Assembly (NCBI GenBank): GCA_018263395.1
Contig: JAANXF010000021.1
Location: 1 to 45,263 of the forward strand
Length of the DNA stretch: 45,263 nucleotides
Direction: 5' to 3'
Source: Methanonatronarchaeales archaeon
GTDB taxonomy: Archaea; Halobacteriota; Methanonatronarchaeia; JAANXF01
Both the position numbers and the translations under genes were made by a program. Numbering within the stretch: the stretch's first letter is position 1; the number at the start of each line of letters is the position of its first letter. This document shows, in pieces, positions 16,011 through 41,455 of this stretch. The notes below the pieces were generated by a model. That model was not told where the DNA came from and searched no databases. It saw nothing but the letters and a program-made list of their open reading frames with translations.

Positions 16011-17444
16011 CTAACCACTAAACTGATCCAACCCGGCTTGCTCCTCTCCCCGGCCCTTCTCCTCAAGTCCCACCAGCAACTCCCCCGCCGACCCGTCCCC
16101 CGGCTCCTGCGGCACAAGCCGACCCTCGAAAGCCTTCTTCAGGATGGCCTGGCGCAGGCGCGAGGCGCGTTTGAGTTCAGACGATATCACACTCTGCGAG
16201 TTATCAACCACTGACAACTTTCCATCAAGAAGCTCAACGATTTTATTTTGCTCTTGAGAAGGAGGAACAGGAATCGCTAAAGACGCCAACTTGGTCGCGT
16301 TAACATTCGGCTGACCAACCCCAATCTTTCCTTCGGTTATCTGCCTCCAATAGAAAAGCGACTGGAAGAATTGGTACACGTACTCCTCATGGATTCTATC
16401 AAGGAGTACTAGCCGTATCAAGTACGATGCGAAAACCGATTCAGGGAACTTTCCCTGAAGAAGGAAGTTTTTCCCGACCGTCCCTCCAGTCCTAGCAAAA
16501 ACAATATCTCCAGAGTTCAGAAGGTACTTTTTCTTCTCGTTATCCTCTATCTCGCAGTAAGGTGCTTCCTCCCAATCTACTGAGTTATTTTGAATATCCG
16601 ATATCCTCAGAAACTTAGGCCCCACTTCATTATCTTCAGCACTCGCCGTGTATCCGTACTGAATCTGCTTGGCAACATCTCCGATTTGAGCCCAGGTCCA
16701 ACAATCAGGTATGTCGAAAAGGATGTCCTCCTCAATTTCGTTTAATCGATTTCCGCTCTTGTACTTGTTGATTTCAGGATGGTTTTCAGCCCATTCTAAT
16801 AATTCGGAAGCTGACTCAAGCTCCCCCTCATACTCCTCCCGCCACTCCTGCGTCAACCGTCCCTCCACTGCGGTCTTCAGGAGGGACTGGCGGTACCGTT
16901 CGAGCTGCTTCTGCGCGGTTTCGAGGCTCTTCACGCCGGCGTCGAGGCGGGAGACCAGCTCCTCGATTTTCTCCACGATGCGGCGCTGCTCGGGGAGAGG
17001 TGGGAGACCGATATCAAAATCACTAATCGTATCGTAGGAAACTCTGGGGTGTTGTACCCCGGTGGTGTTTTTATCCGCGTATTCAACAAAACCTGATGAG
17101 AGCATCCTATACTTTAAGAATCTATTATTGATACCCTCTACGTCTCCCTTAAATACTAGGATATCAGTTGAGCAGACGCCCTCAAAATCAGGTATGGCGA
17201 CTTTGTTAAGGTAAGGTCGGAGTTTACCATATAGGAGGTCGCCTGACGAAAAACGGGTTTTAGCACTTTTCACATCATCGGATGTGCCTTTACCGATAAT
17301 GTTCCCTTCTTCTTTTTGGATATGCTTGAGCCCTAAATATGGGACAGGATCTTCCAACTCTTCAGGGTCAATCTTGGTCTTTCTTTGTTCGAGAACATCT
17401 CCTAGCTCAATCTGCGACCAGTTTTGTGGCATTTCACCACTCAA
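16011..17444 (-). CDS. hsdS: Type I restriction-modification specificity subunit HsdS
   Basis: A 477-residue DNA-recognition subunit with two target recognition domains, each followed by a conserved helix. The first half ends LPPLPEQRRIVEKIEELVSRLDAG with ETAQKQLERYRQSLLKTAVEGRL, and the second ends VPPSQEQNKIVELLDGKL with RLRQAILKKAFEGRLVPQ. The recognition domains have markedly lower GC than the conserved helices, as expected for exchangeable modules. The start overlaps the hsdR stop by 4 nt. The target sequence cannot be predicted here. Confidence 0.95.
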   Translation of the reverse strand: MSGEMPQNWSQIELGDVLEQRKTKIDPEELEDPVPYLGLKHIQKEEGNIIGKGTSDDVKSAKTRFSSGDLLYGKLRPYLNKVAIPDFEGVCSTDILVFKGDVEGINNRFLKYRMLSSGFVEYADKNTTGVQHPRVSYDTISDFDIGLPPLPEQRRIVEKIEELVSRLDAGVKSLETAQKQLERYRQSLLKTAVEGRLTQEWREEYEGELESASELLEWAENHPEINKYKSGNRLNEIEEDILFDIPDCWTWAQIGDVAKQIQYGYTASAEDNEVGPKFLRISDIQNNSVDWEEAPYCEIEDNEKKKYLLNSGDIVFARTGGTVGKNFLLQGKFPESVFASYLIRLVLLDRIHEEYVYQFFQSLFYWRQITEGKIGVGQPNVNATKLASLAIPVPPSQEQNKIVELLDGKLSVVDNSQSVISSELKRASRLRQAILKKAFEGRLVPQEPGDGSAGELLVGLEEKGRGEEQAGLDQFSG

Positions 17445-20119
17445 GCCACCAGCTCCTCATTTAACTCATCCACGACGTTTTCGAGGTCGTTTCCGAAGAG
17501 GTTGCGGGCTTTGACGAGGCCTCCTTTTTCGTTGAAGGGGGAGAGCTGGAAGTCGTCGAGTTCCATGGTGAGGCTGGTGGCTATGTGGTCCTTCATCATG
17601 TTTAGAAATTCCCGTTGCTCCCCGGTGAACTCGCGCCCGTTCTCCCCCTCCTGGCGTTCCATCCAGTCCCGGAAGCGCTGGTCCACATCGTCCCTGAAGT
17701 GGTGGAGTTCGTCGGTCTCGCCGAGCTCGTAGCGCAGGATGGAGACGAGGTCGGTTAGCAGGACGCGGTGGGAGGCGCCGCGCTCCCTGGAGTCCTGGAG
17801 CCTCTCGTAGGCGTCCCAGAGTTCGTCGGGGTGGATGGTGTAGGGCGGACTCTCTATCGCCTCCGCGAGCTCCCTTATCTGGTCCAGGGTGAGGTGGCGG
17901 TCGCCGTAGGGCCGGCTGTAGAATATCTGGAGCGCCGTGATCTCGTCCCGGTTCTCCTCGATGAACTCCCGGAAGCCCTGCACCACGCGCTCCGCCCGTT
18001 CGCCGTACTCGAAGCCGCGCTCCCGAACCTCGTCGATGGATTCCTCGTCGATATACTGGTAGGTCTTGCTCTTCACCTCCTCCCGGGCCTCCTCCACCTG
18101 CTCCTCCGTCGGCTCCTCCGTGTCGAACCTCTGCCGCGCGACCTCTTCCTGAACGTCGGGGTCCGCGGCGTCCAGCAGGTCGTTCGTGATGTCCCGGACG
18201 TCCTCCCCGGTCTTCTCCCGCAGCTCCTCGCGCTGCGCCGGGTCCATGGTCTTGTCGAAGCGGGAGAGGCGGCTGGCCAGAGTGGACAGGGTGTCGTCGT
18301 CCCGTATCCCCACGGAGACGTCCTTCACCACCCTCTCGAAGGATACGGAGGGCTCCCGGTTGAGCTGCCGGGAGTCCGTCTTCTCCGTCTCCGTGACGCC
18401 GACGGCGTCCACCACCACGAAGTGTGTCTTTCGAGCGGCGTCCGGCGTGACGCCCCGGAGCTCGTTGGGGTCGACGGTGCGGGTGCCGCGACCCTTCATC
18501 TGCTCGAAGTAGGTGCGGGACGCGATGTTTCGCATGAATAGGAGGCACTCCACCGGCTTGATGTCCGTGCCGGTGGAAATCATGTCGACCGCGACCGCGA
18601 CCCGCGGGTTGTAGGAGTTGCGGAACTCGCTGATGAGGTCCTCCGGGTCCTTCTCAGAGCGGTACGTGATTTTCTTGCAGAAGTCGTTCCCCTTGCCGAA
18701 CTCCTCCCGAACGATTCGCGTGATGTCCTCGGCGTGGGAGTCGTCCTTGGCGAACACGATGGTCTTCGGGACCTCCGCCCGGCCCGGGAACATCTCCGTC
18801 GTCACGGCGTCCCGGAATGCCCTGACCACGGTCCGTATCTGGTCCGGCGCCACGACGTAGCGGTCCAGCTGCGTCGAGGAGTAGTCTAGGTCCTCGTCCA
18901 GGGTCTCCCAGAGCTCCTCACGGGTCCGCTTGTCCCGCTTCCCGATGTACTGCTCCGCTTCCACCTCGCCTCCCTCCTCCGATATCTCGGTCACGATGCG
19001 GTAGACGTCGTAGTCCACGTTCACGTTGTCCGCGACGGCGCGCTCGTGGGAGTACTCCATCACCAGGTTCTTGTCGAAGAAGCCGAGGGTCCGCTTGGCC
19101 GGGGTAGCGGTGAGTCCGACGAGGAAGGCGTCGAAGTACTCCAGGACCTGCCGCCACTTTCCGTAGATGGAGCGGTGGCACTCGTCGATGACTATGAAGT
19201 CGAAGGTCTCGACGGGGACCTCCGGGTTGTACACGACCTCGGCGGGTTCGCCGTCCGAGGCGTGCTCGAAACCGGACTCCTCGTCCACCTCCGGGTCCAG
19301 GTCCTCGTCCTTCAGGATGGAGTAGAGGCGCTGAACCGTGGAGATGCAGACGTCGCTGGAGTCGTCCAGGGCGTTCGTCGTGAGGTGCTGGACGTTGTAG
19401 AGCTCCGTGAACTTCCGGTTGGAGTCCGGGGTCCTGTACTGCTCGAACTCCTTCTTCGCCTGTCTGCCGAGGTTGTTTCGGTCCACGAGGAACAGGACCC
19501 TGTTGGCCTTCGCGTGCTTCAAGAGGCGGTAGGTCTCGGTGACGGCGGTGTAGGTCTTTCCGCTGCCGGTGGCCATCTGGACCAGGGCCCGGGGCCGGTT
19601 CTCGGCGAACGAGCGCTCCAGGTTCGTGATGGCCTCGTACTGGGCGTCCCAGAGGCGTCCCTGCCCCAGCCCCGGCATGTTCCTCAGCCTGCCGCGGAGC
19701 GTCTCCAACTGGTCCGTCCGTTCCTCAAGGGTCTCGGGTCGGTGGAAGCTGAACACCCTTCTCTGCCTCGGCTCCGGGTCGGCGGCGTCGGTGAACATCG
19801 TCTCGACGCCGGTGGACTCGTACCTGAAGCGGAGAGGCAGCTCGACGTGAGGTATCTCCTCCGGTATGCCCGCCGCGTATCGCCGGGTCTGCTCCGCCAC
19901 GCCGCTCAGAGTCGTTTCCTCCGGCTTAGCCTCCACCACCCCGACGGCCTGCCTGTCGACGAAGAGGGCGTAGTCGACGGGACCCGAGCCCGTTGGAAAC
20001 TCCCGGACCGCGACGCCCGGCGAGGCGCCGAGGTTGATTCGGTCCCGGTCCTGAACCGTCCAGCCCGAGGACTCAAGCTGCCGGTCGATTTTTTCGCGGG
20101 CCCTGGACTCGGGGTTCAT
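17441..20119 (-). CDS. hsdR: Type I restriction endonuclease subunit HsdR
   Basis: An 892-residue motor and nuclease subunit. The N-terminal nuclease domain has the PD-ExK-like pattern PVDYALF then VVEAK (D49, E63, K65). The SF2 helicase core has Walker A TGSGKT (184-189), the box IDECH (311-315), TATP, and the late motif FEQMKGRGTR. A helical C-terminal region for HsdM/HsdS binding follows. A TATA box ATTAATTATA (20141-20150) is 27 nt upstream of ATG 20119, so it heads the operon hsdR-hsdS-caspase-like gene. hsdM is encoded separately at 8.4-9.8 kb. Confidence 0.95.
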   Translation of the reverse strand: MNPESRAREKIDRQLESSGWTVQDRDRINLGASPGVAVREFPTGSGPVDYALFVDRQAVGVVEAKPEETTLSGVAEQTRRYAAGIPEEIPHVELPLRFRYESTGVETMFTDAADPEPRQRRVFSFHRPETLEERTDQLETLRGRLRNMPGLGQGRLWDAQYEAITNLERSFAENRPRALVQMATGSGKTYTAVTETYRLLKHAKANRVLFLVDRNNLGRQAKKEFEQYRTPDSNRKFTELYNVQHLTTNALDDSSDVCISTVQRLYSILKDEDLDPEVDEESGFEHASDGEPAEVVYNPEVPVETFDFIVIDECHRSIYGKWRQVLEYFDAFLVGLTATPAKRTLGFFDKNLVMEYSHERAVADNVNVDYDVYRIVTEISEEGGEVEAEQYIGKRDKRTREELWETLDEDLDYSSTQLDRYVVAPDQIRTVVRAFRDAVTTEMFPGRAEVPKTIVFAKDDSHAEDITRIVREEFGKGNDFCKKITYRSEKDPEDLISEFRNSYNPRVAVAVDMISTGTDIKPVECLLFMRNIASRTYFEQMKGRGTRTVDPNELRGVTPDAARKTHFVVVDAVGVTETEKTDSRQLNREPSVSFERVVKDVSVGIRDDDTLSTLASRLSRFDKTMDPAQREELREKTGEDVRDITNDLLDAADPDVQEEVARQRFDTEEPTEEQVEEAREEVKSKTYQYIDEESIDEVRERGFEYGERAERVVQGFREFIEENRDEITALQIFYSRPYGDRHLTLDQIRELAEAIESPPYTIHPDELWDAYERLQDSRERGASHRVLLTDLVSILRYELGETDELHHFRDDVDQRFRDWMERQEGENGREFTGEQREFLNMMKDHIATSLTMELDDFQLSPFNEKGGLVKARNLFGNDLENVVDELNEELVA

Positions 20120-39889: not shown

Positions 39890-41455
39890 TTATTGAAAAT
39901 TAATTATATTGCTTGGGTTTTGACCGACCTCTTTTAGATGATTGAATATATGTGCTGTTGCGAAAAGATCCTCTTTATTGTACTCCAAAAAGGTATCCCA
40001 ATCCGGCTCATCGCCGTTATCAAGATAACGTGAATAAGCTAACCCAACTTCAAATCCATCGACGCCCTCCACATTTCTTTCAAATCCGAAATAATGAGAG
40101 ATTTCTTTTAGAGCGATACGGTCAAAATCACCTAATAGGCCATTCATAACTTCGATACCTAGATCTATTTCAGGCTCCAAAATATGGCCTTCTTCATCCA
40201 ACCTTGATTTCATTAAAGCGTTTTGGATAGCTCGCTTGTCAAAGTTAGATGCACTATAGCTTATCAAAGTTCCGTCCTGATGATCGATTTCGTTAATGAA
40301 ATCATTTAAAAGCTTTTCCTGATCGTCTTTCTCGAAAAGTTGAAGCACCTCGCCATTATGTTGATCGTATATCCCAATTATAGTGATTGTCATAACTTTC
40401 TTTATATGTTCTCTCAGCGATTCTGCCCTATCCCCGAAGACGAGAAGTAAATCTGAATATTAAAGAAGTTTCGTCAACCACTATAGCCATATTTGATTCC
40501 CTCCGAGGTCGGTTTCAATATCATAAAATATTGGGCGTTCTATCCTTGATATAGTGCTTAAAAGTTCTTCTGTGAGTAGGATTCTACCTTCTATCACGGC
40601 CCTGCTTTCTTGAATCCATCTGTCAACGTGCCACTTTCCTGCCCCAGGTAGCTTTAAAAGGGACTCTCTATTATTTTCATTAATATCGTTTAGAGAATCA
40701 ATTCCATGCTCTTTCATGTGTAGAACTCTTTTAATACCAACTTGAGTTAGTCTAGAAAGAGGAGATATCCTTGAGAAAAAGTCTCTCACAGAAGTTGTTT
40801 TTATACTGTTAATCCCTGACTCATCAACATCCACAATCGCAAATCTACCATCAGCTCCCTCGTGGTCGTGGGAAGCAACATTCAGCACAATGTGGTTAGC
40901 CCTCTCTAGATATTTGCCTCCAGAGCTGTGCGAATGTCCACAAACAATTAAATCAAGGTCATTGATACTCCTGATTGCTTCCGAACCTATATCATCAAAT
41001 CCGAATCGGGCGCCTGTACTCAATGTTCCTTTTGGAGGAACATGGGTTAGAAGAATAGTTGAAGCAGTATTAGGAATCTCTTCTTTTTGAGCTTTTATGT
41101 GGTCCCTAATAGTTCGTTCCGAGTACAGGATGTTCCCAGGCCCGGGCTCTACAGTTCCCTCTTGACCTAAGAAACCTATTTCATCTTCTACAAGAGGTCT
41201 TTGATGGAGGTCTATGACATTTTTACTACTGTAAATCTGATTCAGAGGCTGGAGATCATCGTTCCCAGCGACACCTAGAAACAGCTCCTTTGAGGTCCGT
41301 CTTGCTATCTCTTCGAAGTAGTTAGCATCTTCATTGATAAATCGAGAGAGGTCGTCACCTCCATAGAGAACTAAATCTACGTTTACGGCATCAAGAACGT
41401 AGAGGAGATGGTCCAGATTTTGAACACGCCAATCTGAAAAAGCTAATATCTTCAT
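39890..41455 (-). pseudogene. Composite metallophosphoesterase-HhH-DEDD exonuclease, interrupted
   Basis: Two open parts in the same frame, 41455-40481 and 40393-39890, seem to form one gene. Part one is a calcineurin-like phosphoesterase (FSDWR, YGGDDLS, VAGNDD, LLTHVPPKG, VCGHSHSSGG), then a helix-hairpin-helix (LLKLPGAGKWHVDRW), then IFYDIETDLGGNQIWL, motif I of a DEDD exonuclease, before an in-frame TAG. Part two continues IGIYDQHNGEVLQLFEKDD with motif II (YSASNFD) and motif III (YNKEDL), as in YprB/RNase_H_2 domains. The first metal His of DxH is replaced by Arg (DWR) and GNH reads GND. GC is about 40%, far below its neighbours, which points to transfer. Function unknown; DNA repair or defence is a guess. 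Confidence 0.6.

Follow-up and report, generated by a model that had tools for sequence, protein, structure and literature searches.

The question raised by this locus is whether positions 39890 to 41455 of the window (the whole 45,263-nucleotide stretch of Methanonatronarchaeales DNA that was analysed) encode a single protein joining a phosphoesterase, a helix-hairpin-helix (HhH) domain and an exonuclease, and what has become of that protein in this genome. A preliminary description had presented an intact composite gene. We find instead that the gene is interrupted: its ancestral form is readily recognized on the minus strand, yet a 107-bp element lies within it, and the window copy is very probably an acquired archaeal nuclease gene that has been broken by a MITE. 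The locus comprises the following features.

39890-41455, minus strand: ancestral phosphoesterase (MPE)-HhH-DEDD exonuclease gene, now split; 486 codons without the insert
40481-41455, minus strand: ORF1, 324 aa, with the whole MPE, the HhH and exonuclease motif I (DIETD); its end is a TAG inside the insert
40820-41455, minus strand: calcineurin-like phosphoesterase domain with motifs SDWR, GGDD, GNDD, LTHVPP, GHSH and NVASHD, assigned from PF00149, PF12850, motif conservation and the predicted fold of a relative
40601-40759, minus strand: HhH domain, residues 233-285 (PF14520)
40508-40522, minus strand: motif I (DIETD) of the DEDD exonuclease, left behind on ORF1
40379-40485, no strand assigned: MITE, 107 bp including both flanking TA dinucleotides (105 bp net insertion), with terminal inverted repeats
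40481-40483, minus strand: first in-frame stop, TAG, codon 325, created by the insertion
40460-40462, minus strand: second in-frame stop, TAA, codon 332, inside the insert
39890-40393, minus strand: ORF2, 167 aa, the remaining RNase_H_2/DEDD exonuclease with motif II (SASNFD) and motif III (YNKED), without motif I

In Pfam searches, residues 1-177 of ORF1 matched Metallophos (PF00149, E 3.5e-10) and residues 1-212 matched PF12850, followed by HHH_5 (PF14520; E 2.9e-6, 28.1 bits against a cut-off of 27). ORF2 matched RNase_H_2 (PF13482, E 2.4e-21) from model position 16 onward, i.e., with motif I absent, and carries a tyrosine four residues ahead of its last aspartate (YNKED), which is the DEDDy pattern. 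The three domains are thus arranged in the order, on the same strand and in the same codon register that the preliminary description had proposed. What it missed is that this register is not open: both TAG and TAA lie within 40379-40485, and the frame restarts at an in-frame ATG (40393-40391) that itself lies within the element. Given that the other two frames of the minus strand contain 48 and 49 stops across 39890-41455, the long frame outside the insert represents a true gene rather than a chance occurrence.

Removing the insert restores this gene. With the flanks joined at a single TA (the insertion point being CAAATATGGC-TA-ATTGGG), 486 codons can be read with no internal stop. The joined frame reads ...DIETDLGGNQIWL|IGIYDQHNGEV..., haloarchaeal homologues read ...DIETDLQQDRIWL|VGTYSYQNDAY... 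with no gap at the junction, and the alignment is likewise gap-free at this point (QIWL|IGIY in the window, RIWL|VGTY in the homologues) against 16 relatives. This places the insert, on the predicted fold, between exonuclease strands beta1 and beta2, with motif I left on ORF1 and motifs II and III on ORF2. The net insertion of 105 bp preserves the codon register. We also inspected the LeuRS neighbourhoods of the two other genomes in the class; as these are not syntenic with the window, they offer no view of an empty chromosomal site.

The insert has the hallmarks of a small mobile element. Its terminal inverted repeats span 29 nt and are identical at 22 of 29 positions (11/13 at the outer end), a score equalled by none of 20000 shuffles, and it has no coding capacity. 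Nine copies are present in the genome, one of which, on another contig (C22:41065), is identical at 107/107 positions, the rest being 79-83% identical. The copies have their ends in common and are embedded in unrelated flanks, except for one flank that is shared between two of them. TA borders the insert on both sides; one genomic copy (C15:6295) ends in TATG instead. On the strength of nine copies with unrelated flanks, we identify the insert by sequence as a MITE inserted at a TA, and the exact twin copy together with the undecayed remainder of the gene suggests that it arrived recently. Other frames are affected as well: one copy (G000:C9:85679-85800, L003) splits an 895-codon frame with a weak match to AAA-type ATPases into 395 and 535 codons, in DNA of 45% GC, and another (C22:28147, L006) cuts off the beginning of a 504-codon frame.

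As for the origin of the element, it had no match in the plasmid collection, and DDE_3, the IS630/Tc1 transposase domain, was not found in its own genome. Nine identical 128-bp repeats are, nevertheless, located at contig ends (e.g., C22:1-128, C10:1-128 and C3:15450-15577); they begin TATAGTTATTGACG and match the MITE ends at 21/25 and 19/25 positions. They also contain the opening codons of an ORF (MPRDYVTETKKWISKK...), the body of which was not assembled and whose 26-aa start had no match in the plasmid collection. These repeats look like a collapsed multi-copy insertion sequence at which the assembly breaks, and this insertion sequence is the probable parent of the MITE.

We propose the following course of events for the window copy. 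The 105-bp MITE would have jumped recently into the TA between the codons for strands beta1 and beta2, bringing along two in-frame stops and cutting motif I off from exonuclease motifs II and III, so that at best a 324-aa MPE-HhH remnant would be made. Because of the two stops and the severed motif I, the exonuclease is most likely dead. The window copy is probably a pseudogene, or else yields the MPE-HhH remnant only; the sequence of this remnant is complete, and it might persist. A search for a second intact copy in the same genome returned, as the sole other RNase_H_2 match, an 841-aa frame that probably encodes a family-B DNA polymerase. We also considered read-through of a recoded stop and rejected it: TAG and TAA both occur in the insert, and the homologues lack extra residues at this position.

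Three other readings of the insert deserve consideration. That the assembler misplaced a repeat within an otherwise intact gene is conceivable in principle, since the genome is a 22-contig draft and the element is a repeat with an identical copy elsewhere. Yet the sequences to either side of the insert make up one gene and yield a clean TA target, the other copies are embedded in flanks of their own, and at 107 bp the repeat is shorter than the 128-bp overlaps that break this assembly, leaving only the slightest chance of such an artefact. It is also quite improbable that the split gene still works, with the 324-aa MPE-HhH protein and the 167-aa exonuclease remainder being co-translated and reassembling as a two-piece enzyme. 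The ATG at 40393, which the end of the MITE provides in the reading frame of the second half, and the register kept by the 105 bp would permit this, but a split between beta1 and beta2 puts motif I (DxE) on the other chain, none of the relatives compared is naturally split at the MITE position, and the element has many copies and looks recent. A related idea, that precise excision of the MITE in some of the cells would make it an on/off switch for the nuclease, draws on the ability of TA-target elements to leave a clean site, on the intact state of the rest of the gene and on the multi-copy insertion sequence with related ends, which could supply a transposase. Against it, no empty site was seen in the one consensus assembly, and the transposase of the related element is absent from that assembly; we regard such a switch as very improbable. 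A knock-out by insertion thus remains our preferred reading.

The gene itself appears to be foreign to its surroundings. Its GC content is 40%, with a GC3 of 34% as opposed to 91% in the adjacent LeuRS gene, while most of the window is at ~65% GC. The neighbours are LeuRS, a hexapeptide-repeat (gamma-carbonic-anhydrase-like) protein and acetyl-CoA synthetase, in line with the initial description of ~40% GC DNA between core genes. A gene of 40% GC within ~65% GC DNA was probably acquired horizontally, as had been supposed. Elsewhere in the window, we recognized by eye a minus-strand ORF at 16011-17444 that looks like a type I restriction specificity subunit, followed by an HsdR-like helicase (17441-20119, minus strand); these restriction-like ORFs at 16011-20119 adjoin a 39% GC stretch at 15-16 kb.

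If the window copy is broken, what was the ancestral protein? The composite nature claimed for it is borne out by uninterrupted homologues with the same domain order, which were found on haloarchaeal plasmids and in distant lineages, so that these domains are not always carried by two genes. Full-length relatives occur in 4 of the 393 genomes of the phylum and are open across 485-486 codons; the uninterrupted ~481-aa homologues show 38-41% identity. The plasmid collection yielded ten records with a coverage of at least 80%, all haloarchaeal, and a genome scan added Thaumarchaeota, Lokiarchaeota, another Asgard archaeon, Archaeoglobaceae and Methanobacteriaceae, along with bacterial MAGs from Acidobacteria, Spirochaetes and others. 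Wherever the gene is complete, the phosphoesterase and exonuclease-like parts are fused, although one archaeal branch has a divergent C-terminal part that Pfam does not recognize. A few individual copies deviate: that of Haloarcula sp. SYNS111 (L113:6101-7441) appears damaged, with a 5′ frameshift and two pieces, that of Haloplanus sp. GDY1 (L114, 6001-7368) has an altered C-terminus, and that of Halobellus clavatus (L082) lacks the N-terminus.

The aligned members share SD[WY]R, GDD, GN[D/N], GHxH and D-x-E with few exceptions, and haloarchaeal members have YNNDD, again with a tyrosine four positions before the last aspartate and hence the DEDDy pattern. The preliminary description had rightly noted DWR in place of DxH and GND in place of GNH, and had taken them to mean that the metal chemistry of the window protein may differ. 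Any such chemistry is not peculiar to this protein: since DxR and GND are kept in nearly all relatives, by sequence they are a family signature and no anomaly of the window copy.

No solved structure was found by sequence search. An AlphaFold2 model of the intact Halorientalis marina homologue (L075) has a pLDDT of 84 and a pTM of 0.56, the relative placement of its domains not being reliable. Model residues 1-232 match phosphoesterases, among them aq_1956 (2yvt; Z 22.8, rmsd 2.8, 205 aligned), TT1561 (Z 21.2) and Mre11 of M. jannaschii (Z 19). Residues 311-481 match PolB exonuclease domains (5mdn; Z 16.7, rmsd 2.5, 162 aligned), which together with the Pfam match of ORF2 upholds the earlier reading of the second part as an RNase H-like exonuclease. 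In the structure of MPPED2 H67R, chain residue 57 aligns with model residue 1; judging from the aligned ranges, H67 probably is the DxH position, in which case a DxR phosphoesterase has been crystallised before. Taken from sequence and model, the family appears to be a patchily distributed one that combines an Mre11-like metallophosphoesterase, an HhH and a PolB-exonuclease-like DEDDy 3′-5′ exonuclease in one chain. It seems undescribed, in that we found no paper on the MPE-HhH-DEDD combination in the literature library searched. The novelty claimed for the combination holds to this extent, with the reservation that the proteins are already in public databases under single-domain names: the plasmid homologues go by the annotations ribonuclease H-like protein, metallophosphoesterase or hypothetical protein.

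Gene neighbourhoods offer a glimpse at what the intact protein might do. A divergent SRAP gene adjoins the family gene in nine of the ten plasmid records. Cdc6 commonly lies upstream, and a type B DNA polymerase is encoded downstream at a distance of a few genes (a Cdc6-SRAP-X-PolB cluster). In a Methanobacteriaceae MAG (L102:4088-5791), Ku (PF02735, E 1e-38) and an ATP-dependent DNA ligase (PF01068, E 6e-38) are encoded directly upstream. Contexts vary among lineages, and one homologue (L085) has no informative neighbour. More distant haloarchaeal relatives, 28-29% identical across the HhH-exonuclease half, are encoded directly ahead of a DEAD/DEAH helicase; in L115:4440-8701 and L116:4440-8305, the HhH-RNase_H_2-type protein overlaps the start of the helicase gene. 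Overall, the genomic context of the relatives points to DNA repair or replication.

The preliminary description had suggested a repair or defence nuclease, and it is the repair half of this suggestion that the SRAP, Cdc6, PolB and Ku-ligase contexts favour. Defence against viruses in place of repair is a live but weaker alternative, which we consider unlikely. Its attraction lies in the patchy, plasmid-borne distribution, in defence-like genes, TIR-domain and DUF262 ones among them, that occur in the vicinity of two plasmid copies, and in a match of the MPE part to the PADLOC defence candidate PDC-S10 (E 2.3e-11). PDC-S10 is itself only a candidate, however, and its match is confined to the MPE; the constant neighbours closest to the gene are SRAP, Cdc6 and PolB, with Ku and ligase in one lineage, and neither the phage collection nor viral contigs contained relatives of the family. 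We therefore lean toward a repair role for the intact family.

In such a role, the HhH of the intact protein would bind a DNA end or branched or damaged DNA, and the two metal-dependent sites would act in sequence, the MPE opening or cleaning the substrate as an endonuclease or phosphoesterase before the DEDDy site trims it 3′ to 5′. The protein would thereby serve the repair of replication or double-strand-break damage. More specifically, and more tentatively, with the chances not quite even, the intact family may represent a DNA-end-processing enzyme, as yet undescribed, of archaea and sporadically of bacteria, which acts in replication-coupled repair on haloarchaeal plasmids, alongside SRAP, Cdc6 and PolB, and in end joining beside Ku and ligase in Methanobacteriaceae. 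While the window copy itself would be an ordinary knock-out by a small mobile element, the interest may lie in the family that it exposes, which, being annotated by single-domain names only, is a candidate for an end-processing nuclease still missing from the archaeal repair repertoire. Among the plasmid hosts are several cultured haloarchaea, making the idea testable.

How does this protein compare with known systems? Its closest counterpart is the haloarchaeal plasmid type represented by WP_238324112.1 of Halobacterium hubeiense pSTJ002, with the same domain order, the SDWR/GDD/GND/GHxH/DIETD motifs and ~38-41% identity over the full length. The plasmid type is uninterrupted and found in the Cdc6-SRAP-PolB setting, whereas the window copy is split, low in GC and situated between housekeeping genes. 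The insert in turn resembles the MITEs of archaea and bacteria (for a review, PMC10969869), being short, non-coding and multi-copy, with terminal inverted repeats and TA at both ends.

Mre11/SbcD and the aq_1956/TT1561 phosphoesterases align with the predicted MPE fold of the relative at Z 19-23. In contrast with Mre11, the family has DxR for DxH, and no Rad50 gene adjoins the window copy, whose neighbours are those given above. On the exonuclease side, a likeness exists to MrfB (YprB) of Bacillus subtilis, which is a member of PF13482 and which, like the window protein, is a DEDD exonuclease. MrfB acts in mitomycin repair and belongs, as a metal-dependent exonuclease, to the DnaQ superfamily; it is of the DEDDh type, has a TPR domain and is partnered by the helicase MrfA (PMC11194089). 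Different from the DEDDh histidine of MrfB, the window exonuclease has the DEDDy-type tyrosine, and it comes without TPR. No MZB-type helicase, the kind of partner represented by MrfA/YprA, scored over the cut-off in its own genome (78% complete). The pairing of an HhH-RNase_H_2 protein with a DEAD/DEAH helicase in haloarchaea is reminiscent of MrfB-MrfA (PMC12458937, PMC11194089).

The second half of the family also matches TIGR03491, the TM0106 family of RecB-like putative nucleases, at model positions ~214-460, which cover HhH and RNase H. For the window parts, this match is limited to the HhH-RNase H region and reaches 22.1 and 35.5 bits, under the cut-off of 97.45. Since TIGR03491 has an N-terminal RecB-like nuclease where the MPE-HhH-exonuclease family has its phosphoesterase, the phosphoesterase takes the place of the RecB-like domain. 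The family may be regarded as a modestly novel double nuclease in a single chain, with an Mre11-like phosphoesterase where TM0106-type proteins have their RecB-like part.
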